From: a virus
IMG/VR virus record: IMGVR_UViG_3300028920_000027
Location: 118,336-182,335 of that record
DNA: 64,000 nt
Direction: 5' to 3' (one strand)
The notes below the pieces were generated by a model. That model saw only the letters and a program-made list of their open reading frames with translations. It ran no database searches and had not been told where the DNA came from. A program made the translations under genes and the position numbers. Below, piece after piece: positions 5,815 to 63,973 of this stretch; position 1 is the stretch's first letter, and each line of letters opens with the position of its first letter.

Positions 5815-6178
5815 GGGCGAAGGGGTGGTCTACCCTCGGCGCACGTTCACCCTGAAAGCCGATGACCTCATCATTGGTCGGGTTGGAATTCGCTGTGCCG
5901 AGGAGCACGTGCGAGCGCTGCTGAAAGCGCTGCTCAAGGGCGGTTTCAAGGTTGAGCCTGGGCCGTCGGTGGATCCCTCCAAGTGTGCCGACTGCTCAGG
6001 CTACGTGCCGATGTACGTGGTGGGAGACGAGGTCTGGGCCAAAGCCATCGCCACGAAGCCTGCCCGATTCCTTTGCCTGAGTTGTCTGGAGCAACGTCTC
6101 GGGCGCCTACTACTGTTCCAGGACTTCCCTGAAGCTAACCCCACCAACCAAGCCATACACTACTTGAGGCCCCGGTGA
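5804..6178 (+). CDS. Zinc-ribbon hypothetical protein
   Basis: 124 residues from ATG 5804, preceded by GAGAGGAGAG. Two Cys pairs, CADC and CLSC (about residues 60-98), would bind zinc. It overlaps the HD gene upstream and GTG 6175 downstream, so the three genes form one operon. Function unknown. Confidence 0.7.
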   Translation: MLNRGEGVVYPRRTFTLKADDLIIGRVGIRCAEEHVRALLKALLKGGFKVEPGPSVDPSKCADCSGYVPMYVVGDEVWAKAIATKPARFLCLSCLEQRLGRLLLFQDFPEANPTNQAIHYLRPR

Positions 6179-15662: not shown

Positions 15663-16001
15663 TTAGCCCTCTGACAGGCGTTCCCACGCCGTTTTGACTG
15701 GGCCCGGGACTTCGGCCTGCTCCGGGGTCTGCACGGCCTCCAGAAGGGTGTGGCCGGCCTTTTGGACCCTCTCTCGCTTAGATCGTTCCTCCTGGACTTC
15801 TCGCTCAGCGCGCTGAGCCCTTCTCTGGCACGCTTGAAATTCGCGATTCAGGTCGTGCCCCACCTTTCGCAGACGTTCGATTTCGTTGCGGGACCACCTC
15901 AGCTCTTCCTGCTTGTGTATCTTCGTTTGGCGGTACCACCGGTACTGGAGCGCCAGGACAACGGCGATGGTAGTGGCACAGGTGACTTCGAGAATAGACA
16001 C
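15663..16001 (-). CDS. Membrane-anchored coiled coil ending in TAWERL tag
   Basis: 112 residues from GTG 16001. A membrane helix (LEVTCATTIAVVLALQY) at residues 4-20 is followed by a long charged coiled coil (QEELRWSRNEIERLRK through EVQEERSKRERVQ). It ends in PGPVKTAWERLSEG. With a basic segment after the helix, the coil and tag should face the cytoplasm. Paired with the similar gene at 16749. Confidence 0.75.
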   Translation of the reverse strand: MSILEVTCATTIAVVLALQYRWYRQTKIHKQEELRWSRNEIERLRKVGHDLNREFQACQRRAQRAEREVQEERSKRERVQKAGHTLLEAVQTPEQAEVPGPVKTAWERLSEG

Positions 16002-16748: not shown

Positions 16749-17060
16749 CTAGCCTTTCCGCAACCGCTCCCACGCGGTCAAACGGACGGACTCGAGAGCC
16801 TTCTTCGGCGGGGGCTCGGGCCCTTCGGGAACCTCTGGTCGATTCGCCAGCTCCTGCTCGAGACAAGTCCTGAGCTCGGCGTACTGGATGCCCATGGATT
16901 GCAGGCTCGTGCGCAACTGAGCCTCGTTCTTCTTCAGTGCTGTGATCTCTGAACGGAGGCGGCCCCGCTCCTCTTGCCGCTTGAGGCACCAGCAGTACTG
17001 GATACTGATGATGAGCAGCTCGGCGATGACCACGGCTGTGAGGAGTTGGGTCAAGGTCAT
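16749..17060 (-). CDS. Membrane-anchored coiled coil ending in TAWERL tag
   Basis: 103 residues from ATG 17060. Membrane helix LLTAVVIAELLIISIQYCW (about 6-24), then a coiled coil (RQEERGRLRSEITALKKNE) and a Pro-rich linker PEVPEGPEPPPKK before the terminal RLTAWERLRKG. Same layout as 15663-16001. Confidence 0.75.
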   Translation of the reverse strand: MTLTQLLTAVVIAELLIISIQYCWCLKRQEERGRLRSEITALKKNEAQLRTSLQSMGIQYAELRTCLEQELANRPEVPEGPEPPPKKALESVRLTAWERLRKG

Positions 17061-17068
17061 TTTTCTCC

Positions 17069-17097
17069 AAGGTACACCGTTGGGACCAGTGTACCCT
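17069..17097. promoter_or_regulatory. Divergent class 1 promoters
   Basis: Minus: GGTGTACCTT, 8 bases from ATG 17060 with GGAG between. Plus: AGTGTACCCT, 5 bases from ATG 17103. Confidence 0.6.
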
Positions 17098-17102
17098 AGG
17101 GC

Positions 17103-18320
17103 ATGGCCAACCCCATCGCCCCCATGCTCCGGGACCACGTCCTACGCCTGATCAGTGCCGAGGGGCGCGAACGGGTCGAGGGGCTCATCCTGCCGCTCGC
17201 CCTGGCGCGCCACGACTACAGCTCTGAGCAGTCGGCTGTGCTGGCAGTTTCGAACTTCGTCACCCACCTGATGAACCCCTCACACGCCTTCATTCCCCGG
17301 TGGCACACGGTGATTCAGGAGCTGGTGCGAACCACTCCGGTCCCGGATCCCGAGCCCGAAGTTAGCTCCAATGCGCTCGCCAACATGTTTGGCAACGGAT
17401 CCGTCTTTATCGATCTTTCCAGGGGCGAAGGCCAGGAATGGGGAAGTCTTAGCGATCTGCACCGAGTCAGTGGTGCAGGCAAGAGTCGCACGCCAAGCGA
17501 CTGGCTGAGAACCAAACAGGCTCAACGTCTCATTATGGAGCAGTCTGGGAAATCACAGACTGCCTTAAATTCCGCTACATTTGACGTCGACGACTACAAC
17601 GACGTGATTCAAGTGGTCAATGGCGGCACCCATCCAGGGACTCGAGCCCGTTGGGAACTCTTCACGGCTTTTGCCGAATGGCTGGCCCCAGCTTTCCACC
17701 TGCAAGTCATCCGGGACTGGCGGATCTATGTCACTGGTCAGGCCGCTCAAATGCCGGCCCAGGGCGCACTCGAGCAGGCCCTCGTCCGCCTCGTATCCAG
17801 CTTCGAACGGACGCTGGACACGTTTGCCAAGACCGCTGAGCGCCTCGCCTGCTGGGATGGACAACGCCTTCAGCAGGCATCGCCCGTGCCCGTGGCGCCC
17901 CCTGGGGGGCAGGCAGAGGCACGGGCCCAAGTCCGGATCATTGTCGAAGAGCATGCCAAGTTTTTGATAGCGCAGGGCATCCCTCACAGGGAAGCCTACG
18001 AGAGTGCCTATGGGTGGCTCTACACGTTCGCTGAAGGGCAGTGGGGGATCCGGGTACGGCGGCACAGCCAGAGCGAGACCAACCTCGAGTACATTGACAG
18101 CCAGGGGCTCTCCACGCGCCTGCTGGAGTTGGTCAAGCTGTTCTACCCGGACGCCTATGCTAGGTGCCAGCACCGCATCGAGTCGCCTATCCCGCGCCCG
18201 TCCCGCAAACGCAGGGTAGAGGTTGAGGGCGACAGCGATGATGACAGTGCCGACGACAACACTGGGTCGCCTTTTGTCCAGGAAGTTGTGGAAAACTACG
18301 TCGCCGAGCAGCTGTCATGA
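17103..18320 (+). CDS. KilA-N domain protein
   Basis: 405 residues. The KilA-N signature lies at about 85-210: VFIDLSRGEGQEWGSLSDLH, KSRTPSDWLRTKQA, then QVVNGGTHPGTRARWELF and FAEWLAPAFHLQVIRDW. KilA-N is a DNA-binding domain of phages and large DNA viruses, often in antirepressors. The C-terminal 200 residues are unrecognised, with an acidic DDDSADDN stretch. Its TGA overlaps the next ATG. Confidence 0.85.
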   Translation: MANPIAPMLRDHVLRLISAEGRERVEGLILPLALARHDYSSEQSAVLAVSNFVTHLMNPSHAFIPRWHTVIQELVRTTPVPDPEPEVSSNALANMFGNGSVFIDLSRGEGQEWGSLSDLHRVSGAGKSRTPSDWLRTKQAQRLIMEQSGKSQTALNSATFDVDDYNDVIQVVNGGTHPGTRARWELFTAFAEWLAPAFHLQVIRDWRIYVTGQAAQMPAQGALEQALVRLVSSFERTLDTFAKTAERLACWDGQRLQQASPVPVAPPGGQAEARAQVRIIVEEHAKFLIAQGIPHREAYESAYGWLYTFAEGQWGIRVRRHSQSETNLEYIDSQGLSTRLLELVKLFYPDAYARCQHRIESPIPRPSRKRRVEVEGDSDDDSADDNTGSPFVQEVVENYVAEQLS

Positions 18321-18500: not shown

Positions 18501-18842
18501 TTGACCATCCGTTTTGGCCCCAACCTTGTCTACCCCAGCGACCGCCAGGGGGGTCGGTACCAAGAGTTTCAAGGGACCGCTATTGAGGTCGATGAGTGGG
18601 AACCTCACGAGCCCGGAAGCCGGATTGCCAAAAGAGCCGTTCGAGTTGTAGTCAAAATCCCCGGCGAAGAGCAGACATACGCCGGGTATACCGAGGCCCC
18701 ACCTCCAGTTGGTGCGACCGTGACCATTCGGGTCTATGACTGCGGTGGGGGCTGGTACCCCGATAGTCGTATCCAAGGGTGGTCATCACCCCGGCCACGA
18801 AAGACCTTTTGGGAACGTTTGAATGGTGCACAAAGTTTCTGA
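18501..18842 (+). CDS. Beta-rich protein with C-terminal WERL tag
   Basis: 113 residues from TTG 18501, six bases after the previous stop. The body is beta-rich (RAVRVVVKIPGEEQTYAGY, GATVTIRVYDCGGGWYPD). It ends RPRKTFWERLNGAQSF. Confidence 0.65.
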   Translation: MTIRFGPNLVYPSDRQGGRYQEFQGTAIEVDEWEPHEPGSRIAKRAVRVVVKIPGEEQTYAGYTEAPPPVGATVTIRVYDCGGGWYPDSRIQGWSSPRPRKTFWERLNGAQSF

Positions 18843-32315: not shown

Positions 32316-32527
32316 AATACCAACTTCATGAGAAGTGCCCCGCCTGTGAACGAACGCGTACGGACTCCGGCGTGTCCGTTGCTGAAACCGTGGCCATGCA
32401 CAACCCCGACACCACGGACCTGAACGCCCGCGCCACGCTCCGGTGCCGCGCCTGCGGGCACACGTGGGAAGGTCACACCACGAGCCCATATACCCAGAGA
32501 ATGCGCCGACGAGGGAGAATCCGATGA
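32312..32527 (+). CDS. Zinc-ribbon protein
   Basis: 71 residues from GTG 32312 (GTGA overlap). CPACERT and CRACGHTWEGH give four Cys. A decayed DNA copy of its second half lies at 44944-45006. Confidence 0.7.
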   Translation: MKYQLHEKCPACERTRTDSGVSVAETVAMHNPDTTDLNARATLRCRACGHTWEGHTTSPYTQRMRRRGRIR

Positions 32528-32943
32528 ACACCAAGCTAATGCCTAGAGCGGAACAATCACAGCGGCTTACTCTCATCGCGCAGAAACTGCGAGGGGTGGA
32601 CCGCCGGGATCCCGTCGTGGATGAGTTCGTCGATCTTCTGAGCCGCCACCTAGCCACTACTTGCGATCTCAGCATTAGAGACCGAACTCTGACCCTGGTG
32701 CTCTTGCCTCTCAGAGGCGCCCCCACGCCCCGGAAGCGAACCCCTCATGGGGTGAGCCACTCCATGGATCAGATCTTGATCGTCGATCCCGAGAGCTTTC
32801 GGGTCATCGAGGTCATCAAGGACTGTTTTGGCCGGACCAGACCGGGGGATCCCGTGTACCAGGGAGACTTTATTCGGCTGGGACGGGCGCGGCTGGCCGA
32901 GGAAGCTCGGCCTACCTTGTGGGAGCGGCTCGACGAGGAGTAG
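32524..32943 (+). CDS. Hypothetical protein with C-terminal PTLWERL tag
   Basis: 139 residues from ATG 32524 (ATGA overlap). Helical N-terminus and a beta-rich middle (MDQILIVDPESFRVIEVIKD). It ends EEARPTLWERLDEE, the canonical tag. Convergent overlap of 32 bases with 32912-33418. Confidence 0.75.
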   Translation: MNTKLMPRAEQSQRLTLIAQKLRGVDRRDPVVDEFVDLLSRHLATTCDLSIRDRTLTLVLLPLRGAPTPRKRTPHGVSHSMDQILIVDPESFRVIEVIKDCFGRTRPGDPVYQGDFIRLGRARLAEEARPTLWERLDEE

Positions 32944-40967: not shown

Positions 40968-41000
40968 CACAAACGTCTCCCCCGGGGAAGCCGCACACTG

Positions 41001-43438: not shown

Positions 43439-43927
43439 ATGCTCACGTTTTTACCTCCAAAATGGCGTATCATCGACATGGGAAACCGACGGCAGGTTCG
43501 GGTAACCGAGTTGCTCGACCGACTCATGTCCAGGTACGGAGAGGCCTTCGTGGCGGACGCCTTCAGTGCAGCCGTCGAAGGTCGCTTGCTGGAGAGGCTC
43601 AGGTCACGCTTCGGCGAGTCAACGTCAGAGCCTCGAATCGCAACCCTGCTGGACTACCCTCGACGGCTTCTCTACACAGAGGAGAAGGGCCGTGTCGACT
43701 GGGAAAACCAGACTTTCCCCGGGGAGGATCACTCTGACGTCCGCGAAAAAGATGGCGAACGCACGTTCACAACCGAGCCCTACGGCATTAGCTGGGAGAA
43801 TTTGGCTGGGATGGTCGACTACTGTCGGAAAAATGGCCTTCAAGCCGACGTGTCCACAGGGTCGCCGCACAACGCTACCAGTTGTGTCCTGGTCACCGTG
43901 CGCCGGGCTTCAAAGGAAACGCCGTGA
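43439..43927 (+). CDS. Hypothetical protein
   Basis: 162 residues. VRVTELLDRLMSRYGEAFVA and ISWENLAGMVDYCRKNGL. Unrecognised. Its TGA overlaps ATG 43927. Confidence 0.65.
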   Translation: MLTFLPPKWRIIDMGNRRQVRVTELLDRLMSRYGEAFVADAFSAAVEGRLLERLRSRFGESTSEPRIATLLDYPRRLLYTEEKGRVDWENQTFPGEDHSDVREKDGERTFTTEPYGISWENLAGMVDYCRKNGLQADVSTGSPHNATSCVLVTVRRASKETP

Positions 43928-44865
43928 TGGAAATGGTCACTTCCCAAGAAGCGGGCCTGGTCCTGGTGCGGTTCGAGACATGCTGGCGCCCCCTGTGCCA
44001 GCATGTCGTTACTGAGTGGGGTATCGCCCACGAAGGGCGGGCATCCCTTGCCTACGAAATGTTCGAGCGGCTTGAAGGCCAAGACGTATTCGATTGGCCT
44101 ATGTTGCTGGGCCTGCCGTCGCGGAGTCTCGACGAGTTGACCGAGATCGCGTTCCGACCACCGATAGACTCGGGGACGTTCTGGCAATGGTTGTTGTCCA
44201 AGTCCGACCAGCAAGACGCCTTGGGGTTGCTGTCCGCTGACCTGCGACGGGACCTCCTAGCCCCCAAGACCGATGATCTCGCAAAGCTGTACGAGTATCT
44301 GGGAACCTCTGACCCGTCGTTGTGGGAAGACCGTAAGCACGGATCGGAGTTGGCACAGTCCGCTGTCCTGTGCGCCTGGCTCGCGTTCAAAACGGGGTTC
44401 AAGGCAATCCCGATAAGCCCCGATGTATTCCTCAAGCTGGGTCGAGCCTACGCCCTGTTGCGAGGGCTCCAAGCCGATGAAGGAGTCAGGGATGACGTTG
44501 ACGTGTCCCCTGTGGTCAAACAACTAGCCCCTATGCTGGATAGATTGGGGCTGGTACGGACGACATTCCCCTTCAAACCATACGATGAGGTGGAGCCCTT
44601 GGCCGACTACTTCCAACGACTGTCCACGTGCTGGAGTCAGATCGACAGAGACCTCCACGACGTGTATCGCAGCGTGACCCTTTCATTTCAAGTGAACGAC
44701 CAGGGCGCTGACCTGTTCCAAGTGATAGGGTACTCTGGGTTGGCCGGCCTCCGTGTCGATATCACCGACGCTGCGGAGAAGTTCAACGTGGTGACCCAGG
44801 ACCTGTTTCCAGAGGTGGAAAGTCGAGGGCTTTCGACTTGGGAACTTCTAGCCCTGACCAGCTGA
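43927..44865 (+). CDS. Large helical protein with tag variant STWELL
   Basis: 312 residues from ATG 43927. Mostly helical (LSRSLDE-type repeats absent): FDWPMLLGLPSRSLDELTE, LLSADLRRDLLAPKTDD. It ends ESRGLSTWELLALTS, a divergent WERL-type end. Function unknown. Confidence 0.65.
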   Translation: MEMVTSQEAGLVLVRFETCWRPLCQHVVTEWGIAHEGRASLAYEMFERLEGQDVFDWPMLLGLPSRSLDELTEIAFRPPIDSGTFWQWLLSKSDQQDALGLLSADLRRDLLAPKTDDLAKLYEYLGTSDPSLWEDRKHGSELAQSAVLCAWLAFKTGFKAIPISPDVFLKLGRAYALLRGLQADEGVRDDVDVSPVVKQLAPMLDRLGLVRTTFPFKPYDEVEPLADYFQRLSTCWSQIDRDLHDVYRSVTLSFQVNDQGADLFQVIGYSGLAGLRVDITDAAEKFNVVTQDLFPEVESRGLSTWELLALTS

Positions 44866-45038: not shown

Positions 45039-45269
45039 ATGCCAACGCCACCCTGCGACGACCACGCCGCCATCCTGGCCTACCTAGGCACCATCCCCGA
45101 GCTCGAAGCAGACGCCATCACGCTGTACGTCCAGAACGGCATGGAGCCGGAGAACATCGCTGCCGTCATCGGGACCGACTTCGCGACCGCGCGCCGGGAC
45201 CGAGAAGTCCAACAGCTCGCCCAGGACGCACGCCGCCCGTCCCTCTGGGAACGGCTCAGCCGCTTGTAG
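45039..45269 (+). CDS. Small HTH-like protein with PSLWERL tag
   Basis: 76 residues from ATG 45039. NGMEPENIAAVIGTDFATAR reads as a helix-turn-helix. It ends ARRPSLWERLSRL. A tagged small regulator is the likely reading. Confidence 0.65.
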   Translation: MPTPPCDDHAAILAYLGTIPELEADAITLYVQNGMEPENIAAVIGTDFATARRDREVQQLAQDARRPSLWERLSRL

Positions 45270-51256: not shown

Positions 51257-51263
51257 GGTTGCT

Positions 51264-51550: not shown

Positions 51551-51566
51551 ACTGGAAGCGATCCAG

Positions 51567-53929: not shown

Positions 53930-54352
53930 GTGGCTTCGAAGCGTGAGGCATTGAGTGTGAAGGCATCGGGGCCTGTGGTGTTGTTGTTGCGAGCGATGGC
54001 GCGGCGGTACTCGTGGGTGACGCTGCACAAGCTGACGTTGGTGTGTATTCGTTTGGGGCTGAGGGCACTCGACCAGCGCCCGCATTTGCTGGAGAAGGAG
54101 CTACGGGCGATGCAGGTGGAGAGGCAAGAGCATGACCCACGGAAGGGTAAGAAGAAGCGTGCAGTACGGCGGAAGGCAGCGGGGCCACCTCGGAAGGCCA
54201 AGCCGAAGCCGCCGGGGCCGGTAGCGCAGGGAGCGATACCGCCAGCGCCGAGGTTGAGAGAGGTATTGACGCCTGAGCTATTGGCGAGCGTGATGTCGGG
54301 TGTTTTGGGGAAGGGCAGTATCGAAGTAGACCTGAAGGAGCCAGATGACTGA
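53930..54352 (+). CDS. Basic protein, unknown function
   Basis: 140 residues from GTG 53930. Helical N-terminus (SGPVVLLLRAMARRYSWVT), a Lys/Pro/Ala-rich linker (KGKKKRAVRRKAAGPPRKA) and a C-terminal helix LTPELLASVMSGVLGKG. Codons here prefer G endings over C, unlike neighbours. Overlaps ATG 54345. Confidence 0.6.
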   Translation: MASKREALSVKASGPVVLLLRAMARRYSWVTLHKLTLVCIRLGLRALDQRPHLLEKELRAMQVERQEHDPRKGKKKRAVRRKAAGPPRKAKPKPPGPVAQGAIPPAPRLREVLTPELLASVMSGVLGKGSIEVDLKEPDD

Positions 54353-54710
54353 GGGCTTCAGCTACACGGCGAGTTGGAGCATATCGGCATCGGAGTTGGT
54401 GGGGGCATCGAGGCTCGACCTGGTGGGTGCTGTTGAGCGGCAGTTGGAGGAGCAGCTAGCGAGGCATTGGGACCGGGTGGTAGCGGGGCTACTGGGCGAG
54501 GCGCCACTGGTACAGAAGCCAGCGATACCGCCATGGCGTCCACTGACCCCCTACTGGGCGCGGGTAGCGAACGTGGAGGCGCGAGGGGAGAGCGTGACGT
54601 CGTTGGATGAGCTATTGCCCGGAGCATCTCAGGCAGCTCGGGTATCGAGGAGCTGGGGCTGGACGCCACGGCCACTGACCTTGTGGGAGCGGCTTGATGA
54701 CAATGGCTGA
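54345..54710 (+). CDS. Hypothetical protein with LTLWERL tag
   Basis: 121 residues. YTASWSISASELVGASRLDL, a helix, Pro-rich linker and the end PRPLTLWERLDDNG. The TGA is the start of the next class 2 promoter. Confidence 0.7.
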   Translation: MTEGFSYTASWSISASELVGASRLDLVGAVERQLEEQLARHWDRVVAGLLGEAPLVQKPAIPPWRPLTPYWARVANVEARGESVTSLDELLPGASQAARVSRSWGWTPRPLTLWERLDDNG

Positions 54711-54732
54711 ACGTTTTGGTCTTTTGGTGTAA
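54708..54732 (+). promoter_or_regulatory. Mixed promoter, TGAACGTTTT..GGTGTAACCC
   Basis: Lies between the tagged gene and ATG 54752, which has GAGAAGGA as ribosome site. Confidence 0.45.
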
Positions 54733-54751
54733 CCCCCAGAGAAGGATTTTC

Positions 54752-54955
54752 ATGAAGAAGCACCCTAGGATGAGCGAACACGTGGAAGGCCTACAGCCCT
54801 CCAGGACCGTCGAGCTGACCTGTGCCCAGTGCGCGTGGTCTGCCTGGTTCGATCCCCTAGCTCCCGAGGTCATGGCAGCCGTGGAGGGCGTTGTGCACAT
54901 CTGCACAACGTGTCGGGGCCGTGCTCTTCCCACAGAGAAAGCCTCATGCCCCTGA
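54752..54955 (+). CDS. Zinc-ribbon protein
   Basis: 67 residues. CAQCAWSAWFDPLAP and CTTCRGRALP. Overlaps the next gene by 10 bases. Confidence 0.7.
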   Translation: MKKHPRMSEHVEGLQPSRTVELTCAQCAWSAWFDPLAPEVMAAVEGVVHICTTCRGRALPTEKASCP

Positions 54956-55917
54956 CCGGTGAACAGCGCGCTGAGTTACGACGGCTCGGGTGGACGGACC
55001 AGCAGCTCGGCAGTGCCGACAACCTGGGCCTGACCTTCGCGACACTCCGGGACGCCGAGGCCCATGAGCCAAGCTCCGTGGGGCGAACGCTCCAGGCATT
55101 GGGTCCGCCAGGCTCCGTTCAAGGCGTCCAGGTCGATCCTTCGGACCCGACCTTCGATGTCATCGAGCAGGTCCGGCAGATGACGGGGCACGGCATCACA
55201 TTCGCTCGCCAGGCGGTTCCAGAGCACCTTCCGTTTGACCTTTCAGGCGAGGCGGACCACTTCCAGGCCCTTACGCAAGCCGCCTTGAACGTTCCCCCTG
55301 AGTGGCAAGCCGCCAGTGGCCAGGTCTACCCTACCGTGGCAGAAGCCAACCAAGCCAACCATGCGTTTTTGGAAGCAGATATTCAGGGCTTCACGCGCCT
55401 GTGCCGCGATCCCGGGAACCAACGACGACCACATTCGCTCGACGAGCGGTTGCAGAGCACCTCACCTTCCCGTCCCGAGAATTGGGCCGAGGCCCTGCGT
55501 GCCTTGGGTGAGATGGGCTCGAACCCTGACATCCCGACCTGGAGGCAGCGTTTTGGTCTCAGCGATGAGGACGCGACAGTGTTACAAGTCGAGCACGCTA
55601 TGCAAGCGGTCACAACCCATGACATCACTATCGACCGTGAGTTCGTCGAGCGGTTGCAGCGCGACATTGCCTTTCATGCTCAATTCGAGCTCTTTTATGG
55701 CGCCTCACCCCGCGGTCGCCAGCAGTTTGGGGTCGAGTACCAGGGGGTGTTCGTCGACGAGGCCGCTAACTTCCCCGAGGTCTTCGTTCCCACCGAAGAG
55801 GAGATCAAGCAGATGTATGCCGACGACGCTCGTCGGGGACTGAGCGAGGACCAGCAGAAGATTCGGGACCGTCGGCCTACCCTGTGGGAACGGCTCAGGG
55901 AGGGCGGCGAACCATGA
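54946..55917 (+). CDS. Helical protein with PTLWERL tag
   Basis: 323 residues from ATG 54946. LRRLGWTDQQLGSADNLG, then two related blocks: VIEQVRQMTGHGITFARQAV and VEHAMQAVTTHDITIDREFV, suggesting an internal duplication. It ends RDRRPTLWERLREGGEP. Unrecognised. Confidence 0.7.
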   Translation: MPLTGEQRAELRRLGWTDQQLGSADNLGLTFATLRDAEAHEPSSVGRTLQALGPPGSVQGVQVDPSDPTFDVIEQVRQMTGHGITFARQAVPEHLPFDLSGEADHFQALTQAALNVPPEWQAASGQVYPTVAEANQANHAFLEADIQGFTRLCRDPGNQRRPHSLDERLQSTSPSRPENWAEALRALGEMGSNPDIPTWRQRFGLSDEDATVLQVEHAMQAVTTHDITIDREFVERLQRDIAFHAQFELFYGASPRGRQQFGVEYQGVFVDEAANFPEVFVPTEEEIKQMYADDARRGLSEDQQKIRDRRPTLWERLREGGEP

Positions 55918-56214
55918 TGGTCTTCGAGCCCGCCCTGCGCCGTATCCTTGACGACCTCCCCCGCGGGGCCGAGATCCTCAACGTCACTTTTGGTCAGCAG
56001 GCCCCCGCGCAACGCCTTCATCGTCTACGACGGGAAGTCGGGGCGTGGACGCGCTGAAACAGGCCGCCACGTCGGCGAAGTACCCCCGGTCCATTGTTCC
56101 TGAGATGCAGCGAGGCCAGCACTCGTACTACCGATGGTGCCCTCTAACCTTCGCCATCGAGCGGGTACCTCCCAAGGGGTCCGTGAGCGACGAGCATTTC
56201 CCCTCTTGGGCTGA
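55914..56214 (+). CDS. Hypothetical protein, two frameshifts, weak tag
   Basis: ATG 55914: MMVFEPALRRILDDLPRGAE, shift at C5 56002-56006 into PPRNAFIVYDGKSG, then DALKQAATSAKYPRSIVPE. Near the end it reads HFPSWAERSQG or, with another shift, stops at the TGA of the class 2 promoter (56212). Confidence 0.45.
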
Positions 56215-56241
56215 ACGATCCCAAGGGTCGCAGCGTATAGT
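56212..56241 (+). promoter_or_regulatory. Class 2 promoter, TGAACGATCC..CGTATAGT
   Basis: Five bases before ATG 56247. Confidence 0.65.
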
Positions 56242-56246
56242 GGTTC

Positions 56247-56540
56247 ATGAGCAAGTTCAGCATCCACAGCGAGTCCGTCACAGAGATCCCCTTCAACGCG
56301 GACGAGCTAGCCAGGACCGGTATCATCACGGTGAGCGAGGGTGTTGTCGAGATCTCTACCCCCAACGCCCGCATCCCGCTTCGGTTCTGGTTTCGCCGGA
56401 CCCACAACCGTGATCGTCAAGCTCGCACCTTGCACCTCATGAGCGGCCCTCGGACGAGTGACCACCCCGGCGAGTACCGCAAGGCTCGTGCCTGGGCCGA
56501 CGCCAACCTCCCCTCCCGCGCGGCGGCGGAGGCAAAGTGA
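56247..56540 (+). CDS. Hypothetical protein
   Basis: 97 residues. GVVEISTPNARIPLRFWFRR and TLHLMSGPRTSDHPGEYR; a small beta domain. No tag. Confidence 0.65.
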   Translation: MSKFSIHSESVTEIPFNADELARTGIITVSEGVVEISTPNARIPLRFWFRRTHNRDRQARTLHLMSGPRTSDHPGEYRKARAWADANLPSRAAAEAK

Positions 56541-56546
56541 TACCCA

Positions 56547-56732
56547 GTGGATCCACGCCTGGATTTGCTACGACAGCTCGGTCACTACGAGAAGCTACCA
56601 CCCGTAGGGTTTGTCATCGAGCGGTTGTGTTCCTCTGAGCTTTGCCATCGAGAAGCATCAAGAAGAGCCCCCCTGCCATGGGTAGACGGCCGACCCTGGT
56701 GGGAACGTTTCAGGGAGGCCGCCCGTGAGTGA
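56547..56732 (+). CDS. Small protein with WWERF tag variant
   Basis: 61 residues from GTG 56547. Ends DGRPWWERFREAARE. Overlaps GTG 56725. Confidence 0.6.
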   Translation: MDPRLDLLRQLGHYEKLPPVGFVIERLCSSELCHREASRRAPLPWVDGRPWWERFREAARE

Positions 56733-57240
56733 CCGCGTCATTGCCAAGGTCATTCCTGGCAAGCGGCCTCCCTTGAGCGTGGGAGACGCTTGCCTCACGT
56801 CGTGGCGCCAGTGGGTGCCTCAGCTGGGGTCCAGCCCCAGCCTCTCTATGTGGACGCCATGCCAAGGGCGGCTGCCCGTCACCGATCTGGGCAGGTTCAA
56901 CCATCCTCAGGCTCTGCTGGAAGACCTGAATCGTGGCTTGGACGACAAGGCTCAAGCTTGCCAACAGCGAGAGTTTCGGGACCATCAACTGAGCGACGAG
57001 CAGCGATGTGGGGCTCGGATTCTGGACATCATCATCATCAATGCCTTGAAGACTCTTTACAAGGGTTCGATACTCCTGGTCCATTTCCAGCTAACCTTCT
57101 CCGTGCGGTTTGCCATCGAGAGCGTTCCTGACTCGACCGTTGGGTTGATCTGTCCCCGCATCTTCGCCGAGACCGTGACTACATGGCATCCCGAGGGTAA
57201 GGTGGCCCCGACCCTGTGGGAGCGACTGGGTGATGGCTGA
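56725..57240 (+). CDS. Tagged family member (PTLWERLGDG)
   Basis: 171 residues from GTG 56725. Central helix RILDIIIINALKTLYKG then strand LLVHFQLTFSVRFAI, the pattern shared with 57731, 58363, 59595, 60211 and 60982. Ends KVAPTLWERLGDG. Confidence 0.7.
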   Translation: MSDRVIAKVIPGKRPPLSVGDACLTSWRQWVPQLGSSPSLSMWTPCQGRLPVTDLGRFNHPQALLEDLNRGLDDKAQACQQREFRDHQLSDEQRCGARILDIIIINALKTLYKGSILLVHFQLTFSVRFAIESVPDSTVGLICPRIFAETVTTWHPEGKVAPTLWERLGDG

Positions 57241-57688
57241 CCCTATCAGTGGCTGGTACCGGGCCAAGCGCTCGTTCACGATGGATACACACGACGGCCC
57301 ATCTGAGGTCGAGAGTGGAGATCGGCTTTTCTATGTGGGTGCCGGCCGCGTTCAGGTCAAGGACGGGAAGATTTGTGAGGTGGTGGACGGCACGAACCTC
57401 TTCGAAGTAGTCTACGAGGTGGGGTGGGTCAAGCTGCTCGCCGCCGCGAAGACTCCTGAGCCCCTGAAGTTGAAACGGGGCTGGTACGTGGTGGTTCGGT
57501 CGTTCACGCACCAGAAGAGCGACATCTCGGTAGACAATGACGCCTTCATCTTCTTTGACGGCGGGCGCGGTCAGCTTGGGCAAGGTCGGTATCTGGAAGC
57601 CGACATCCTTCAGCACATGCTCAAGGTCGGGTGGATTGCCCCTGCCCAAGGGGCCCCGACCCTATGGGAGCGGCTTGATGTCGAGTAG
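57233..57688 (+). CDS. Double-SH3-like protein with PTLWERL tag
   Basis: 151 residues from ATG 57233. Two similar beta modules: GWYRAKRSFTMDTHDGPSEV and GWYVVVRSFTHQKSDISVDN, each followed by a VGW segment, so an internal repeat. Ends GAPTLWERLDVE. Confidence 0.7.
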   Translation: MADPISGWYRAKRSFTMDTHDGPSEVESGDRLFYVGAGRVQVKDGKICEVVDGTNLFEVVYEVGWVKLLAAAKTPEPLKLKRGWYVVVRSFTHQKSDISVDNDAFIFFDGGRGQLGQGRYLEADILQHMLKVGWIAPAQGAPTLWERLDVE

Positions 57689-57715
57689 TCATTGCGGGCC
57701 GCCACCGGGCCCAAC

Positions 57716-57725
57716 GGTGTAAAGT
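57716..57725 (+). promoter_or_regulatory. Class 1 promoter -10, GGTGTAAAGT
   Basis: Ends 5 bases before GTG 57731, fixing that start. Confidence 0.65.
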
Positions 57726-57730
57726 GGCTC

Positions 57731-58366
57731 GTGCGCTTCGACCACATTCGCTTTCTGTGGGTTGATCACCCGGACCGCCTGACCCCGACGTCCGGCCGTT
57801 CCTGGAGCCTCATCTTCACGGGGGGTAGCCCTCTCGACACGTCGGCGCCCTACCACCATCGCGGTTACCTTTGGGGCGAGACAAAACACGGCAAGGCGCG
57901 GGTGCACAACTGGCGGGCGCTGGGGTACCACGAGGTCCAAGACCACTTGGTTCGCTTGGCGCACCACGCGCCTGCCGATGCCATGGAGCGCATGAGTGCC
58001 TACAAGGAAACAGAGGTCCTTGACTCGGTGGGTGTCGTTCGGATCGCGGCTCAGTGGACTCTCGACTACTACATGGCCAATGAGGTCTTCCCCACGAACG
58101 AGGAGCATGAGCGGTCTGGGCCGTTTCCACCAGACTCGTGGCTCTGGATTCGTTGCTACAAGCCGCCCCTGACCGCGGATGACCTGACCAATGAGAGTCG
58201 GAGGGAGAATGGCAGCCCCATCGTGTTCCAGGCGAGCATCACCGTGATGGGGCGGGATCCTCAGGAAGGTGACCGCGAGCTGCCAGCTTTCTTCTGCCAG
58301 ACCCACGCGATGCACAATCGAATGGGATCGGCGGCGCCTCAGCCAACCCTGTGGGAGAGACTATGA
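57731..58366 (+). CDS. Tagged family member ending exactly in PTLWERL
   Basis: 211 residues from GTG 57731. Helix VVRIAAQWTLDYYMANEVF then SWLWIRCYKPP. The stop follows the Leu of PQPTLWERL directly, so nothing beyond the motif is needed. Overlaps the next ATG. Confidence 0.75.
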   Translation: MRFDHIRFLWVDHPDRLTPTSGRSWSLIFTGGSPLDTSAPYHHRGYLWGETKHGKARVHNWRALGYHEVQDHLVRLAHHAPADAMERMSAYKETEVLDSVGVVRIAAQWTLDYYMANEVFPTNEEHERSGPFPPDSWLWIRCYKPPLTADDLTNESRRENGSPIVFQASITVMGRDPQEGDRELPAFFCQTHAMHNRMGSAAPQPTLWERL

Positions 58367-58953
58367 CAGCGCCAATTCAAGAACGAGTTTGGTTCGAGCA
58401 GTTGCCCGATCTAGCTGAGCCTGTGTATGCGTTTGACGCGAACACAGAGATCGTCCGGTTGGGTCTGGGTAGTGACCCCTACGCGCACCTGGAGCCTCGG
58501 GTGTGGACCTTTCAAACGGACAGATTCGATGCCCCAGGCCAGATTTCCCTCACGAAGATCAAGATCCCGGTAGTGAACTCTGCCTTGGGATTCTTGCTTC
58601 AGTTCACTCACGATAAAGCCCAAGACCCTTGTGTCGTGAGCCAACGGTTGAGGGCGACGCGACCTCCCATTCTCAAGGCGGCGGCGGCCCGGCTCGCTCT
58701 CGACCAGCTCGTAACAGACGCTATCAAGTGGTACAGTCAGGAGGATTCTGACTCTCTTTTGTGGATCGTCCACCGACCGCCTAATCAAGCTGGGACGTCG
58801 ATGGTCTGCTTTACGATGTTGAAAAATCTTGCAGAGGGTGTGGGAAATACCACTTCTCCTCCCGAGAAGTGGGGCCTCACTCGCGATCTGTTGATCTCCC
58901 TGGGAGATCGCTCCCCGCCTCAGGCCCCCGTGGGAACGGTTGGGGATGATTAA
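58363..58953 (+). CDS. Tagged family member; tag hidden by paired indels
   Basis: 196 residues as read, ending PPQAPVGTVGDD. The +1 frame encodes PPWERLG at the same place. Removing one C from 58925-58929 and adding one G to 58942-58945 restores QAPWERLGDD and the same TAA. Helix RLALDQLVTDAIKWY then SLLWIVHRPP matches the family. Confidence 0.65.
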   Translation: MTAPIQERVWFEQLPDLAEPVYAFDANTEIVRLGLGSDPYAHLEPRVWTFQTDRFDAPGQISLTKIKIPVVNSALGFLLQFTHDKAQDPCVVSQRLRATRPPILKAAAARLALDQLVTDAIKWYSQEDSDSLLWIVHRPPNQAGTSMVCFTMLKNLAEGVGNTTSPPEKWGLTRDLLISLGDRSPPQAPVGTVGDD

Positions 58954-58991
58954 CGGACGATTTCCTGAACGGAATCCGTATGGGGTACATC

Positions 58992-59165
58992 ATGGCTGAC
59001 TCACCGCATGACAATTATAACTCGTTTGATCCGCTAAAGTGGGTCTTTGGTCCCTTTGCGGTATTTGGGTGTGGTTTCTTGGCTGTTTGGGTGATCTCTG
59101 CCCTTGCATCCTTGGCCCTCATCGGAGCGGCCATCTATCTGATCTATTCCACAGCAACACTGTGA
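58992..59165 (+). CDS. Small membrane protein
   Basis: 57 residues from ATG 58992 (GGGGTACATC upstream). Two hydrophobic stretches, WVFGPFAVFGCGFLAVWVI and LASLALIGAAIYLIY. A shortened class 2 element (TGAACGGAATCCGTATGG) precedes it. Confidence 0.65.
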   Translation: MADSPHDNYNSFDPLKWVFGPFAVFGCGFLAVWVISALASLALIGAAIYLIYSTATL

Positions 59166-59220
59166 CGAGGCCAAATGCCCTCGCGGCGTATCGAAACACG
59201 AGCGGCCATTTGGTCCAAAC

Positions 59221-59598
59221 ATGAAAAGCATCCCCATGGGCATCGAAGGCCGCCACATTCATCTCAGCGACTACGCTCAGCAGCCCGAGGTTCGCATCGC
59301 CTGCACCCAGCGTTACAGCAGCCCCTGGAACCAGCCCAAGGACCTACCTCCGGGCGTCCACCAGCTCGACGAGGACCTCTACACGTTCGACGAGGATTTG
59401 GTGACTTGCCCCGAGTGCAAGGCCATGCCTGTCTGGGTCAAAGGGTATACCCGCAAGCGGCGCTTCGAGGCACAGCTCCAGCTCTGGGGGCTGACGGGGG
59501 GCGAGTACGTGGCCGCCACGAGGGCAGACCCCTTCCTCACGAAGTTCTCCCGAGCTTCGGATGAGGAACTCGACCGCATCTGGAAGGGTGAGACATGA
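59221..59598 (+). CDS. Hypothetical protein
   Basis: 125 residues. VRIACTQRYSSPWNQPKDL, CPECKAMPVWVKGYTRKRR. Ends DRIWKGET, not the tag. Overlaps ATG 59595. Confidence 0.65.
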   Translation: MKSIPMGIEGRHIHLSDYAQQPEVRIACTQRYSSPWNQPKDLPPGVHQLDEDLYTFDEDLVTCPECKAMPVWVKGYTRKRRFEAQLQLWGLTGGEYVAATRADPFLTKFSRASDEELDRIWKGET

Positions 59599-60218
59599 TA
59601 GTCGATACCATCTGCGAGACCTACGCCCGCTTCGAGGAAGTTCCCTTCGACAAGCCCATTGGGGTGACTCTGCCCGACGAGGCCAAGGCTTTGGTTGCTG
59701 AGGTCAACCCCTGGGCGGTGCCCGTTCCCGAACGGTTGAGGTGGGCCAACCTGATGCCTGGGATCTGGGACGTCAGCATCCGTTGGCCACGGTTGGTTTT
59801 CCCTCATTATGCGGAAGAGCACATCGAAAAGATACTAGCCTGCTGTACACATGACCAACAGCAGGCAGCACGAAACCTGATCGCCAGTGCCGCGAGTCAT
59901 GACGATGAGGGCGTCTGGGCACTCAACCGACGCGCGGCAGGACTCTACGCTGATGCCCTCATTGCGCACATCCTTGCTGAGCGCCCCCGGATGTTCCCTG
60001 ACAGCTACCTGTGGGTTCGGTGGCAGTCCGGGCGCAAGGAAGATATCGAAGATGAGCCGGTGCTGAGCGTGTTCATTCTCAGCACAGAGTGGGAGCCTCC
60101 TGCGGGTCGTCGCCTCCCCAAGGAGGAAGTCGACAGCATGACCACCTATACCCTGATGAACCGGTGGCATCTTCAGGTCAAGGGTCCAACCCTGTGGGAG
60201 CGCCTGGCTCGTGACTGA
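59595..60218 (+). CDS. Tagged family member (PTLWERLARD)
   Basis: 207 residues. Helix NRRAAGLYADALIAHILAE then SYLWVRWQSG and VLSVFILST. Ends VKGPTLWERLARD. Confidence 0.75.
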   Translation: MIVDTICETYARFEEVPFDKPIGVTLPDEAKALVAEVNPWAVPVPERLRWANLMPGIWDVSIRWPRLVFPHYAEEHIEKILACCTHDQQQAARNLIASAASHDDEGVWALNRRAAGLYADALIAHILAERPRMFPDSYLWVRWQSGRKEDIEDEPVLSVFILSTEWEPPAGRRLPKEEVDSMTTYTLMNRWHLQVKGPTLWERLARD

Positions 60219-60861
60219 CTCTCCCTTTACCATCCGCTTCATCGAGATGGGCTCAACTCTGGAGGTTCATTCCAGCATGGGGGAGGTTCAGGCACTGGTC
60301 CTCCCCCATGACGCTGATATCTACGAGAAGCCAGTGCCTCGACTCGGATGGCGTCCCTTACCCTCTTGGGTAGTGCATGTGAGTGACACCTTGAACATCC
60401 CTAACCGGTCTGTGCCCGAGTCGACCGCGTATTTGAAGGAGGTGTGTTCCAGGGTGCGTCCTGTAGGTGGGTCCACCGAGGACGTGCGCCGCATGTTCAT
60501 CGACAGACTCGGTCAAGACCGGCCCCACGTTATCGTCGACATTGCATCGGCGTTCCATACCGACAACATCGTCGCCAACATTCTGCGTGGGGCGTACTCC
60601 CCTCCAGCCGAGAAGGTGACCATCGGCTTCAAGCACACCGACCGGCCCCACCTCGTCGTGTTGGCCGCCCGCAAGCATTTCTGGGAGCCTCAGAAGGTCC
60701 ACAACAAGCCCTGGGGCGACATCCCGCCCGAGGAGTGGCCCCAAGTCCGGGCAGTTCTCCGTGGCCTCCACCAGGGCGCGTGGTTTCGACCCTCTCCGAC
60801 CTTGTGGGAGCGACTTGCGCTGAACGATTCGGCAAGTCCATCCGTATGTGGACGCCAGTGA
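60211..60861 (+). CDS. Tagged family member (PTLWERLALND plus 10 residues)
   Basis: 216 residues from GTG 60211. Helix IASAFHTDNIVANILRGAY then KVTIGFKHTDRPHLVVL. PSPTLWERL is followed by 14 residues, the longest tail after the motif. Those bases double as a class 2-like promoter (60831-60850). TGATG couples it to ATG 60861. Confidence 0.7.
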   Translation: MTDSPFTIRFIEMGSTLEVHSSMGEVQALVLPHDADIYEKPVPRLGWRPLPSWVVHVSDTLNIPNRSVPESTAYLKEVCSRVRPVGGSTEDVRRMFIDRLGQDRPHVIVDIASAFHTDNIVANILRGAYSPPAEKVTIGFKHTDRPHLVVLAARKHFWEPQKVHNKPWGDIPPEEWPQVRAVLRGLHQGAWFRPSPTLWERLALNDSASPSVCGRQ

Positions 60862-60984
60862 TGATTCGTGCCCTGAAAGCGTTCGCTAAAGAGGGTGGCA
60901 GGCTCAGAGTGAGCGGTCCACGCCCGAGTGGGCCGTGACGGCGTTGGCTGCGGGCTGGACACCACCCAAGGGTTGGAAGCCGTG
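60861..60984 (+). CDS. Small protein (frameshifted)
   Basis: ATG 60861: MIRALKAFAKEGGRLR, shift near 60910, then ERSTPEWAVTALAAGWTPP to TGA overlapping GTG 60982. Confidence 0.45.
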
Positions 60985-61536
60985 AAGCTCAAGGTCCGCT
61001 TCGAGGAAGTGCCTTCAAGGGGCCTGCCTATCTGTCGGTTAGACCCCTCTTGGTGCTTACATTTCCAGGGCGGTGACCCTTATGACGGGCCAGGTGAGTA
61101 CTCTTGGACACCAATGGCCCCTAAGGCGGGTCTCATCATGACCGCTTTCCGGCGAAAAAGTCTCGAGGAGGCCCGGGAGTGGCTTCAGAAGTGGGATCTC
61201 TGTGTCGAGCACGTGGACACCACCCAGCACATGGACTCCCCCCAGTTGGTGGACCGGGTGGCACAGTTCGCGATCGACCGGTTCGTTTGCATGCTCCTGC
61301 GTCCCTTGAATGACTTCTATTGGTACCGTGTTGTCTACCAGTACGGGTATGTCGCTGGAGAGGTAGCGCGGATTGCGGTCGTTCAGAGCCATGCTGAACC
61401 CCGAGGATGCTCCCTGGAGCCCCCGCCTTTATGGTGGGCCACGGGGCGCATGCTCAAGCATCGGGGCGTTCAGAAATGGCCCACAATTTGGGAGAGGGTG
61501 GCAAACGTCGGTGTAGAGTTTGACGACGATGCCTGA
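60982..61536 (+). CDS. Tagged family member (PTIWERV)
   Basis: 184 residues from GTG 60982 (GTGA overlap). Helix RVAQFAIDRFVCMLLRP then FYWYRVVYQYG. KWPTIWERVANVG is followed by EFDDDA; that end overlaps a class 1 promoter. Confidence 0.7.
   Translation: MKLKVRFEEVPSRGLPICRLDPSWCLHFQGGDPYDGPGEYSWTPMAPKAGLIMTAFRRKSLEEAREWLQKWDLCVEHVDTTQHMDSPQLVDRVAQFAIDRFVCMLLRPLNDFYWYRVVYQYGYVAGEVARIAVVQSHAEPRGCSLEPPPLWWATGRMLKHRGVQKWPTIWERVANVGVEFDDDA
61510..61519 (+). promoter_or_regulatory. Class 1 promoter -10, GGTGTAGAGT
   Basis: Ends 9 bases before ATG 61529, inside the 3' end of the previous gene. Confidence 0.55.
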
Positions 61537-61759
61537 ACCAATTGACCCTTACCGTTTCGTTGTCGGAATCGACTTCGGCCACCACGGCGACGAGACCGCG
61601 CTGGTGACCCTAAATCAGTACACCGGACGGGTGGCAAACTCTGAGCTGACCGTGCTCAAGCAACGACAAGTTCCCGCGGACCGCATCAAGTTGAGTTGGG
61701 GAATGGGCGACCTGGTGGAGCCCCCCACGCTGTTCGAGCGCCTGATGCTGGAGGAGTGA
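61529..61759 (+). CDS. RNase H-like-start small protein with PTLFERL tag
   Basis: 76 residues. FVVGIDFGHHGDETALVTLN recalls the first strand of an RNase H/terminase-nuclease-like fold, but only that strand is present. Ends EPPTLFERLMLEE, with Phe in place of Trp. Confidence 0.65.
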   Translation: MPEPIDPYRFVVGIDFGHHGDETALVTLNQYTGRVANSELTVLKQRQVPADRIKLSWGMGDLVEPPTLFERLMLEE

Positions 61760-62844
61760 TGACGGTCAAGTTCTTTGGGACACCGGTCGTTGACCTGGGG
61801 GAGGTGTGGTTTGTCTCCACCGACAACAGCATTGGCTTCCGCCTCACTGCTTTCGACGGGGGCATGATTTTGAAGACCATTCAGCCCAATTGGTCTCCCC
61901 GTGCCGTTCAGAACATGGGTCTGCTGGACCCCGTCAAGCGAGATTTCGGCGAGTTGGAGCGACCCGTTGAACCCAACGAGACGGTTGCTGAGGTCCGCGA
62001 GGACCTCAGTCTACAAGAACGAACTCTGCTTCTGGAGTATGTACTCCTTCAAAATCACCCCGAGCTAGCCCATCGATTCTCCCAGCAGCCCCATTTTGGT
62101 GGCTGGAAGGTCTTCCCCGACATGGCCGTCGAGTACGAAGGTGGGTGTGTGTGGTTCCGTTGTGGTGAAGGAATGCTCTACTACTACACTATCCACAATG
62201 AAAGGGTCATGGTCGACCAGTCGACCAGGTTTCTGACCTTGAGAGAGTGTGTGGGCAGTGCGCACATGCTCATGCAGCAGAGTCGTAAGGCTGAGATGGA
62301 AGCCATTCACGAGTACTCGACAGTCCGCCTGGACCCTGTCCGTACTGAGTTCGCGTGTGGCGCCGTGCGGGTGACGGCTTCGGGGAACGCCAATTGGGAA
62401 ATAACGTGCCGGGGGGCTCGTTACCTGGTGGTGCCGCGGGTGGTTCAGCGGCTGTACGCGGTGCTTGGGTCCGAATATCCGCTGATGTACGGCTTCACCC
62501 CCGAGGACGCGGTGAAGCGCTTCCTCGGGGCCAACCCGGAGTTGAGGGAAGAGTACACCTTTTTTGGGCGTGCAATTCCCCTCAATGGAGAGCTTGACCT
62601 AGGGGACGGTTATCGAGTCGTGATTGCGGAGGCTCGGGCATGGCTGATGCACCACGACACCGAGCTGATGCAGGTAATGTCGACAACCAACCAGAAAGCT
62701 CTTCAGAAGCTGGAAAAGGCTGCCGCCACGATACGATCTAACCTAACATCGTGGCGGGAGTTCGACTACAAGATCCAACGCTTTGGCATGGGACGCATGA
62801 CGGGTTTTCAACGCCTGCGCTTTGAGGATGAGTTCGATGATTGA
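61759..62844 (+). CDS. Hypothetical protein with GFTP.DA..RF modules, untagged
   Basis: 361 residues from ATG 61759. YLVVPRVVQRLYAVLGSEYP and LMYGFTPEDAVKRF match the end of 63057-63973, so the two are paralogs. A partial third copy starts at 63967 (MTSFFGHAVLP, compare MTVKFFGTPVV). Ends in acidic RFEDEFDD without the tag. Confidence 0.65.
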   Translation: MTVKFFGTPVVDLGEVWFVSTDNSIGFRLTAFDGGMILKTIQPNWSPRAVQNMGLLDPVKRDFGELERPVEPNETVAEVREDLSLQERTLLLEYVLLQNHPELAHRFSQQPHFGGWKVFPDMAVEYEGGCVWFRCGEGMLYYYTIHNERVMVDQSTRFLTLRECVGSAHMLMQQSRKAEMEAIHEYSTVRLDPVRTEFACGAVRVTASGNANWEITCRGARYLVVPRVVQRLYAVLGSEYPLMYGFTPEDAVKRFLGANPELREEYTFFGRAIPLNGELDLGDGYRVVIAEARAWLMHHDTELMQVMSTTNQKALQKLEKAAATIRSNLTSWREFDYKIQRFGMGRMTGFQRLRFEDEFDD

Positions 62845-63067
62845 GAAGGTGGTGTACTTCCCGGACCCGGACGGCGTGGGTGATGGCGTGACGCTGCGGT
62901 TTACCCCTGAGGGCTACCAAAACCTGCGGGACTTCTGCGATAAAGTTGTTCCTCAAGACCAGCTTTGCAGGCGGTTCGCCTCCGCGCTCCGAGCCGTTGC
63001 CGATGCCGCCGATGCTCCGCCCCCCAATGCTTGGGAGATCCTGCGCGATGCCGCCGATGAGGGCTGA
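62837..63067 (+). CDS. Small protein with NAWEIL tag variant
   Basis: 76 residues from ATG 62837. YFPDPDGVGDGVTLRFTPEG then a helix. Ends PPPNAWEILRDAADEG. Confidence 0.6.
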   Translation: MIEKVVYFPDPDGVGDGVTLRFTPEGYQNLRDFCDKVVPQDQLCRRFASALRAVADAADAPPPNAWEILRDAADEG

Positions 63068-63973
63068 GTCAAGAGTCGCTACCGAGCAACTCGATGAGTT
63101 GGCCCATCAGCTGGGCCCCCCACTCCAGCATTTGGCAGACAGGATGAAGCAGTTTGGGCAGGCCCTCACCCAGTTCTCGCTCGCTCTTGAGGAACATGTG
63201 GCACCTGCAAGCATGCCCTGGGCAGCCACGATCGGCCGCAGTCCATTGTCTTCCACCTTGTCTCTGCCAAGGAGCTGTACTTGCACCTGAGGATCAACTG
63301 GTGGGGCAAGGATGGGCCGGCTGTAGCGTTGGTGCTGTATCGTTCGATACGGCCGTGCATCGAGAATGAGATCGCCGACCAAGGGGACCGTCGTAGTATT
63401 ATCGTTGAGTCTCACCTTCCCGACCACTTCGACGAAGAGTTCAAGAATGTCGAGCACGTAGCGAGTCACACCGATGTGGCTCTTCGCTTGTTGGAGAACT
63501 CAGTCCTCTCCCTCTGGCCCCAGCTGGCTCACGATCTGGAGCAGTCGCTCGCGCCCCGTCGTGTTGGGGCACCGGCCTTGGAACCCTGCTTCGGGTGGCT
63601 CATTGACCCGACCCACCGCCTCGGCGACACCACTAATAGGACCCTAGCCTTCAATGAGCTCAACAAGCATTCAGAGACCGCGGTGGCCTACTTTCTCCAG
63701 GACAGCGTGCTGATCTCCCCCATAGAGAGGTTCCCCCTCCCGGTGACGCTGAGTTACGACGTCTACTGGTTCGAATACGATGGTAAGGCTTTCTTGATTC
63801 GAGCCAGTAAGCGAAGGAAGGTGTACAGCATCATCCATTTGACGGACCTACCTGACGGGGCCTACCACGTGGTCTGGGGGTTCACTCCTATCGATGCCAT
63901 GGAGCGTTTCATGGATTCCCGAAGGAACCGGGCCATCCCCGAGACCATTTGGGAGCGCCTGAGTGATGACTAG
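63057..63973 (+). CDS. Paralog of 61759 with ETIWERL tag (frameshifted)
   Basis: ATG 63057: VATEQLDELAHQLGPPLQHL, a shift near 63210-63222, then SIVFHLVSAKELYLHLRIN to VWGFTPIDAMERF and the end AIPETIWERLSDD. The downstream frame has no good start of its own (TTG 63281), supporting one gene. Confidence 0.6.

Follow-up and report, generated by a model that had tools for sequence, protein, structure and literature searches.

About 20 genes on a 182-kb jumbo-phage fragment (G000), the final 64 kb of which form the window analyzed here, encode otherwise different proteins that share a C-terminal peptide, W[ED]R[LIV], placed no more than 14 residues from the stop codon. Across the tagged set, a loose, often Pro-rich linker leads into a core of the form [PK][TSN]xW[ED]x[LI], which lies 0 to 21 residues before the stop and is followed by a short, acidic, variable tail. 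We consider it probable, judging from the sequence patterns described below, that this peptide is a phage-lineage-specific docking tag on early, non-virion accessory proteins and that a single partner, co-evolving with it, reads it in the cytoplasm. The tag-bearing phages form a group of very large, uncultured soil phages; megablast against known phages gave no match, and capsid relatives were found only in two metagenome bins, which do not fix the host.

Genes were called on the whole fragment with a simple purpose-written caller, giving 221 proteins. The pattern W[ED][RH][LIVMF] occurs in the final 19 residues of 17 of them. In 500 shuffles the count averaged 0.26 and never exceeded 3, and internal windows would predict 0.11. 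The earlier note, which had proposed a common C-terminal peptide on about 20 otherwise different proteins and suggested counting it over the full genome against shuffled sequence, had thus understated an enrichment that is far above chance. WER was also the top hit when every gapped triplet in the final 25 residues was searched without bias (17 versus 0.57, p 1e-19). Further tagged genes lie on the fragment outside the window, and none lies in the block of structural and replication genes on the minus strand at 1-79 kb.

Within the window, the clear cases are in frame near the stop. The spelling PTLWERL ends plus-strand ORFs of 139 aa (32524..32943, peptide at 32911-32931), 323 aa (54946..55917, 55876-55896), 171 aa (56725..57240, 57208-57228), 151 aa (57233..57688, 57656-57676), 224 aa (57692..58366, 58343-58363), 207 aa (59595..60218, 60186-60206), and 216 aa (60211..60861, or 194 aa from 60277; 60796-60816, 14 aa before the stop). 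In the 224-aa protein, the peptide is the exact C-terminus, as the earlier note had said of an ORF that it started at 57731. Other spellings on the same strand are LSFWERI (171 aa, 6175..6690; 6652-6672, 5 aa before the stop), KTFWERL (113 aa, 18501..18842; 18801-18821), PSLWERL (76 aa, 45039..45269; 45237-45257), LTLWERL (121 aa, 54345..54710; 54675-54695), PTIWERV (202 aa, 60928..61536, previously started at 60982; 61480-61500, 11 aa before the stop), the variant PTLFERL (76 aa, 61529..61759; 61724-61744), and ETIWERL (230 aa, 63281..63973, previously started at 63057; 63941-63961). Two minus-strand ORFs encode a membrane segment and a coiled coil: one of 112 aa, with the membrane segment at its N-terminus (15663..16001, KTAWERL at 15675-15695), and one of 129 aa (16749..17138, or 103 aa from 17060; LTAWERL at 16761-16781). 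Among the weaker cases put forward earlier, the divergent RPWWERF (61 aa, 56547..56732, plus strand; 56691-56711) and the variant PNAWEIL (76 aa, 62837..63067, plus strand; 63023-63043) also proved to be in frame near the stop. LSTWELL at 44830-44850 (312 aa, 43927..44865, plus strand) is in frame near the stop but borderline, falling below the PSSM cut-off. Two others were lost: QAPWERL at 58363 is out of frame, that ORF ending in QAPVGTVGDD, and PTSWELM at 35256 on the minus strand lies within an open frame of 75 codons that has no clear start. By eye, the products of 57692, 59595, 60928, and the untagged 58363 look like paralogs. Amber readthrough into a tag at 11033-11049 was considered and rejected; the in-frame stop there is TGA, so a CTA-anticodon tRNA offers no explanation.

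The same kind of tag is present in five related jumbo phages, giving 132 proteins in six phages where about 1.4 would be expected, and it is near the C-terminus in 132 of 132. Its spelling differs by lineage: W[ED]R[LI] in G000, G001, and G019; LWDHL in G015, G017, and G018; and PTxWExL..DD in G004. The unbiased search recovers these versions as top C-terminal motifs, with WDH in G018 (29 versus 0.39, p 8e-44), T.W..L in G004, and T.W.R in G001, and LWDHL has 29 sites in G015 and 21 in G017 against none in the reversed control. A second enriched C-terminal motif in G001, ITxAI, belongs to a tandem array of paralogs and was set aside as a product of descent. Members of one orthologous family end in each phage's own version (KTLWERLEED in G001, ANLWDHLTDPQ in G018, PTAWEHLLDEG in G019), and the tag thus goes with the phage rather than with the protein. 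It is also modular: an RlaP-family enzyme is tagged in G004, and its G018 ortholog ends without a tag. The tag set was not found in the negative-control phages Tunturi_5, G037, and LR745208.

Once the tag is removed, 183 loosely defined carriers fall into 169 families. Homologs in other phages were found for 13 of 123 tagged genes, compared with 26-52% of length-matched genes; most jumbo-phage genes are unknown accessory genes, and the tagged ones are fast-evolving genes of this accessory kind. The single-pass membrane proteins among them all have a C-in charge pattern (8 of 8), a difference from untagged proteins that is not significant (p 0.09). Weak matches to Rz-like spanins, which would have their C-terminus in the periplasm, were found for two tagged proteins. 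Two tagged proteins are related to the major capsid protein but truncated; they include its N-arm/E-loop segment and could hint at a role in the head.

An upstream element, [CT]GGTGTA, precedes 32 of 132 tagged and 21 of 124 replication genes, compared with 3 of 194 structural genes (p 4e-11) and 5 of 92 genes with N-terminal tags (p 2e-4); the difference between tagged and "other" genes is not significant (p 0.06). Its position and the class of gene it precedes suggest a promoter, and with the element as a proxy for timing, the tagged genes would have early or middle expression. The N-terminal tags are two further common peptides in the same phages, YDYDRR and RVAxRY, carried by ADP-ribosyltransferases, SprT, topoisomerase IB, and peptidases, that is, virion-type cargo, and almost never by the same protein as the C-terminal tag.

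In the reading that we favor, dozens of accessory proteins, unrelated and lineage-specific, would each bear the docking tag; they appear to be early- or middle-phase products and not parts of the virion. We infer a cytoplasmic site, a helix-like core, and a single reader, which would come either from the phage or from the host, in the second case differing from host to host. Tagged proteins would be recruited to one site, with the tagged membrane coiled coils possibly anchoring that site to the membrane, and the phage could gain new host-takeover or anti-defense proteins by tag addition alone. A search for the reader by gene content yielded weak candidates only, with about 8 of 190 families present in all tag-rich phages and absent from G037, LR745208, and Tunturi_5. 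One candidate, g51, is also present in G006, G012, and G014, phages without an obvious W tag, and is predicted as a plain helical protein with low pTM; another, g162, rests on four genomes and has a poor structure model. A YspA-like SLOG gene and ClpX variants are further candidates for the reader. The head module was rejected as reader, being unchanged in the tagless G037.

The tag could instead direct turnover, as a degron or adaptor-binding motif for a phage ClpX working with host ClpP, so that early proteins are destroyed on schedule. ClpX is encoded by each of the five tag phages whose sequence covers that region (G001, G019, G018, G004, and G029), the G001 protein having both the zinc-binding recognition domain and the AAA domain by Pfam; LR745208 and Tunturi_5 have neither a ClpX hit nor the tag, and the floppy C-terminal tail that bears the tag is where signals are found in ClpX substrates. 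However, G037 encodes ClpX and lacks the tag set. The core lies at a variable distance from the stop and so is not a free-carboxylate C-degron, and with no LAA-like terminus, the tag would need to act as an adaptor tether. We regard turnover as unlikely overall.

Less likely still is virion packaging, in which the tag would do at the C-terminus what the T4 capsid targeting sequence does, loading a range of internal proteins into the prohead to be injected. The T4 internal proteins do share this logic, being a highly diverse set with only the targeting peptide in common (PMC3012670), and the capsid-protein segment inside two tagged proteins fits it. However, tagged and replication genes share an upstream element that is mostly absent from structural and N-terminally tagged genes, the N-terminal peptides are a better match for virion cargo, and the tagless G037 has an intact head module. 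For the first and last of these reasons, virion sorting, one of several roles that the earlier note had offered, loses ground, whereas its central idea of one short docking motif on unrelated proteins stands.

Inheritance, with one family expanded by duplication, is very improbable. A few window genes look paralogous, and tagged genes neighbor one another more often than at random in G000, G019, and G018, but with the tag cut off, the 25 G000 carriers form 25 families at E<1e-3 (phmmer), their lengths, topology, and composition differ, and different phages tag different proteins. Because the carriers are nearly all unrelated once the tag is removed, the shared end does not stem from descent, which the earlier note had named as one outcome that would undo its proposal. 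A DNA-level source, in which WERL would be the chance translation of a repeat, promoter, or ribosome-binding site close to the ends of genes, has a negligible chance of being correct and was rejected: GGAG is indeed contained in TGGGAG, but the nucleotides are not conserved (20 of 20 distinct 21-nt tag DNAs in G000 and 37 of 38 in G018, with the synonymous variation that places selection at the protein level), the next start lies anywhere between 5 and 1980 nt away, and the LWDHL version has no GGAG-type core.

The docking-tag reading can be extended to an addressing code of three nearly exclusive terminal peptides, a proposal for and against which we find the case evenly balanced. C-terminal W[ED]x[LI] would send early non-virion effectors to a single hub that lies in the cytoplasm and co-evolves with the tag, and the N-terminal peptides YDYDRR and RVAxRY would mark cargo carried in the virion. 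From lineage to lineage the C-terminal code drifts (WERL, WDHL, WExL), so that, if the scheme is true, tag and reader would form natural orthogonal pairs, as the lineage-specific versions predict. With the docking-tag reading by itself, some 3-9% of a phage's proteins would be marked as clients of one reader, giving an anonymous list of genes the standing of a defined functional class; the tag would be a handle for pulling out the hub and would show how seven added residues plug new effectors into an existing takeover machine.

Nothing resembling the tag peptide was found in the PDB, text searches of the literature did not find a C-terminal, early-gene, lineage-specific phage address peptide, and we know of no phage labeling system of such form. 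Terminal address peptides are familiar in their general logic; this version in phages is, to our knowledge, undescribed. In hosts infected by phiKZ-like jumbo phages, phage proteins are selectively imported and sorted by a phage nucleus; we know of no short C-terminal import peptide of this form for it, and the replication enzymes here are without the tag. The ssrA tag and other ClpX C-terminal degrons are C-terminal peptides read by one machine, and tag phages encode ClpX (as does the tagless G037), but the jumbo-phage tag is genome-encoded, internal to the tail, and without a terminal LAA. Encapsulin cargo-loading and microcompartment encapsulation peptides are likewise short, C-terminal, and hydrophobic or helical; they follow a Pro/Ala-rich linker and dock unrelated cargo on one partner. 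They differ in core sequence; a scan of part of the genes revealed neither an encapsulin nor a microcompartment shell and recognized only the phage major head protein, and that capsid protein is conserved in the tagless relative. The T4 capsid targeting sequence is N-terminal, marks virion-packaged proteins, and is cut off by the prohead protease. In T4 IPI-III and Alt, this one short terminal peptide is the sole common part of a diverse, fast-evolving set (PMC3012670), much as the tag is all that its 183 carriers share. The jumbo-phage tag, in contrast, is C-terminal and has lineage-specific versions, and its genes carry a replication-type upstream element that, as a proxy for timing, would place them outside the late/virion class.

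The shared peptide near the stop of otherwise unrelated proteins, here called the C tag, is strongly enriched in the full 182,335-base jumbo-phage record (G000), of which the window makes up 118336-182335. With genes called by a simple codon-usage caller made for this analysis, and the remainder of the record read in stretches, W[ED][RH][LIVMF] lies in the last 19 residues of 17 of 221 proteins, as against 0.26 on average and never more than 3 in 500 shuffles, and 0.11 matches predicted from internal windows of the same proteins. An unbiased scan that ranked every gapped triplet of the final 25 residues also has WER at the top. When the tags listed in the earlier note were re-read, 18 window ORFs bore an in-frame tag, clear or variant, at most 14 residues from the stop; STWELL at 43927 was borderline, the tag at 58363 did not share the frame of its ORF, and that at 35256 belongs to an open frame that lacks a clear start. 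Four more scored tags lie beyond the window borders. The minus-strand gene of a zinc-ribbon-like protein (window 11005-11694) has an internal PTLFERL, and beyond its TGA stop the same frame runs via a Pro-rich linker to PPTLWERLA (11033-11049), representing either a decayed tag or readthrough.

The core reads [PK]-[TSN]-[LAV]-W-[ED]-[RH]-[LI], often with an extra Leu, and its W/L spacing would suit an amphipathic helix. Proline is commoner in the 20 residues before it than in the proteome, and the 0-14 (rarely 21) residues after it are 30-52% acidic. The DNA of one tag almost never recurs in another; it uses many synonymous codons and lies at irregular distances from the next start, indicating that selection acts on the peptide.

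Related viral genomes carry the tag in their own spellings: W[ED]R[LI] in G001 and G019, LWDHL in G018 (triplet WDH, 29 versus 0.39 expected), and PTxWExL followed by acidic residues in G004. Scanning for LWDHL gave 29 matches in G015 and 21 in G017; the reversed control gave none. A position-specific score finds 20 tagged proteins in G000, 27 in G001, 26 in G019, 38 in G018, 17 in G004 and 4 in G029, where internal windows predict about 1.4 in total; because the matrix was trained on these same tags, the unbiased scans provide the independent support. Of the negative controls, Tunturi_5 has no tagged proteins, and no C-terminal tag is enriched in LR745208 or in G037, whose portal is 66% identical and of which 390 of 452 kb were covered. 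The tag hence characterises certain lineages within one phage group.

The G000 fragment codes for a portal protein, major head protein, NAD-dependent ligase, B12-type ribonucleotide reductase, RecD2-like helicase and a clamp loader, whose gene is split by an intein that bears a LAGLIDADG endonuclease domain (G000 49107-51881; L011:10107-12881). Viral contigs supplied 56 relatives of its portal, many from 300-529 kb records; among named phages, an uncultured 485-kb phage (51%) comes closest, followed by Tunturiibacter phage Tunturi_5 (38%) and Bacillus phage G (26%). A tRNA-like gene at window 1879-1954 has the amber anticodon CTA, as do two in G001 (257557-257714); 46 tRNA genes are predicted in the G000 fragment.

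For INDEPENDENCE from the proteins, 169 families remain among 183 carriers, taken by a loose definition, once the tag is cut off. The orthologs G001_g113, G018_g386 and G019_g23 end in KTLWERLEED, ANLWDHLTDPQ and PTAWEHLLDEG, so within this family each phage has its own version of the tag. A conserved protein (G001_g47 and orthologs) ends in FDRIM, YDHLM, IDRIL, YTHLL or MDYLD; its ortholog in tagless G037 ends in LDRLM, which may be the ancestral form. G004 has a tagged RlaP-type enzyme that is untagged in G018, and among the other carriers are matches to radical SAM and sigma/HTH-like models. Most carriers lack known relatives, 13 of 123 having a homolog in other phages compared with 26-52% of length-matched genes. 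Separately, G001 encodes in tandem, at 157-195 kb (L124-L125), some 25 paralogous proteins of ~190 aa with a common C-terminal Q[ED]ITxAI region.

Upstream of genes in six phages (G000, G001, G004, G018, G019, G029), the heptamer [CT]GGTGTA is strongly enriched, mostly 0-30 nt before the start. Within 150 nt it precedes 3/194 structural, 21/124 replication, 32/132 C-tagged and 5/92 N-terminal-peptide genes. C-tagged genes exceed structural genes (p 4e-11; 6e-7 by distinct operon leaders) and N-tagged genes (p 2e-4), but show no significant difference from the rest of the genes (p 0.06). This distribution suggests that C-tagged genes belong to an early/middle class. A second element is enriched in most of the six phages (TTAAGATC, ATGGATC, GGATCAA, GTTGATC, GAACGTT).

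The mechanism we favour as best, judging from sequence, is that the tag would dock its carriers on one cytoplasmic partner. A C-in charge pattern is found in all 8 tagged membrane proteins with a single pass, versus 38 of the 57 untagged ones that could be decided (p 0.09), which places this reader probably in the cytoplasm; that placement is wrong if the spanin-like members, two carriers with a weak Rz-like match, are true spanins. Gene-content profiling for the reader yielded candidates only, and predicted models of two were uninformative. The main rival is turnover through the phage's own ClpX (L118:1707-2993 in G001, zinc-binding domain confirmed; orthologs in G004, G018, G019, G029 and G037), which every tag phage covered in that region encodes, but so does tagless G037, where an IGF-like loop (KMGFGA) is visible.

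Delivery to the virion is an unlikely purpose, since two N-terminal peptides, seldom found together with the C tag, mark injectable-type cargo on further unrelated proteins of these phages. M-x-Y-[SD]-Y-D-R-R-x-A, which looks like a virion-targeting peptide, occurs on 39 otherwise different proteins in six phages (outside the window, G000 90531-90863 and 93714-94355; in relatives, L197:19165-19809, L176:3304-4104, L174:5666-6172 and others in alignment A5) and on none in Tunturi_5 or G037; two of the 39 are polyvalent-type ADP-ribosyltransferases. S..RVAxRYL occurs on 57 (G000 40951-41379, 83807-84073, 84202-84846, 99905-100420; alignment A6), including topoisomerase IB, metallopeptidases, GNAT and DnaJ, at times repeated (L154:6620-7552) or C-terminal (G029_g167). 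With SprT and ParB-like proteins also among them, N-terminal-peptide carriers are the sort of cargo that phages inject. Against setting the virion aside, the major head protein has two truncated, C-tagged relatives, which cover its N-arm and E-loop region (G000 110953-112074 and L231:3566-4063) and are possible capsid decoys or regulators.

We are aware of no published phage tag like this one, and none was found in open papers, most subscription literature lying outside the search. The C tag differs from the T4-type capsid targeting sequence, membership in that class failing both on position and on the expression proxy.
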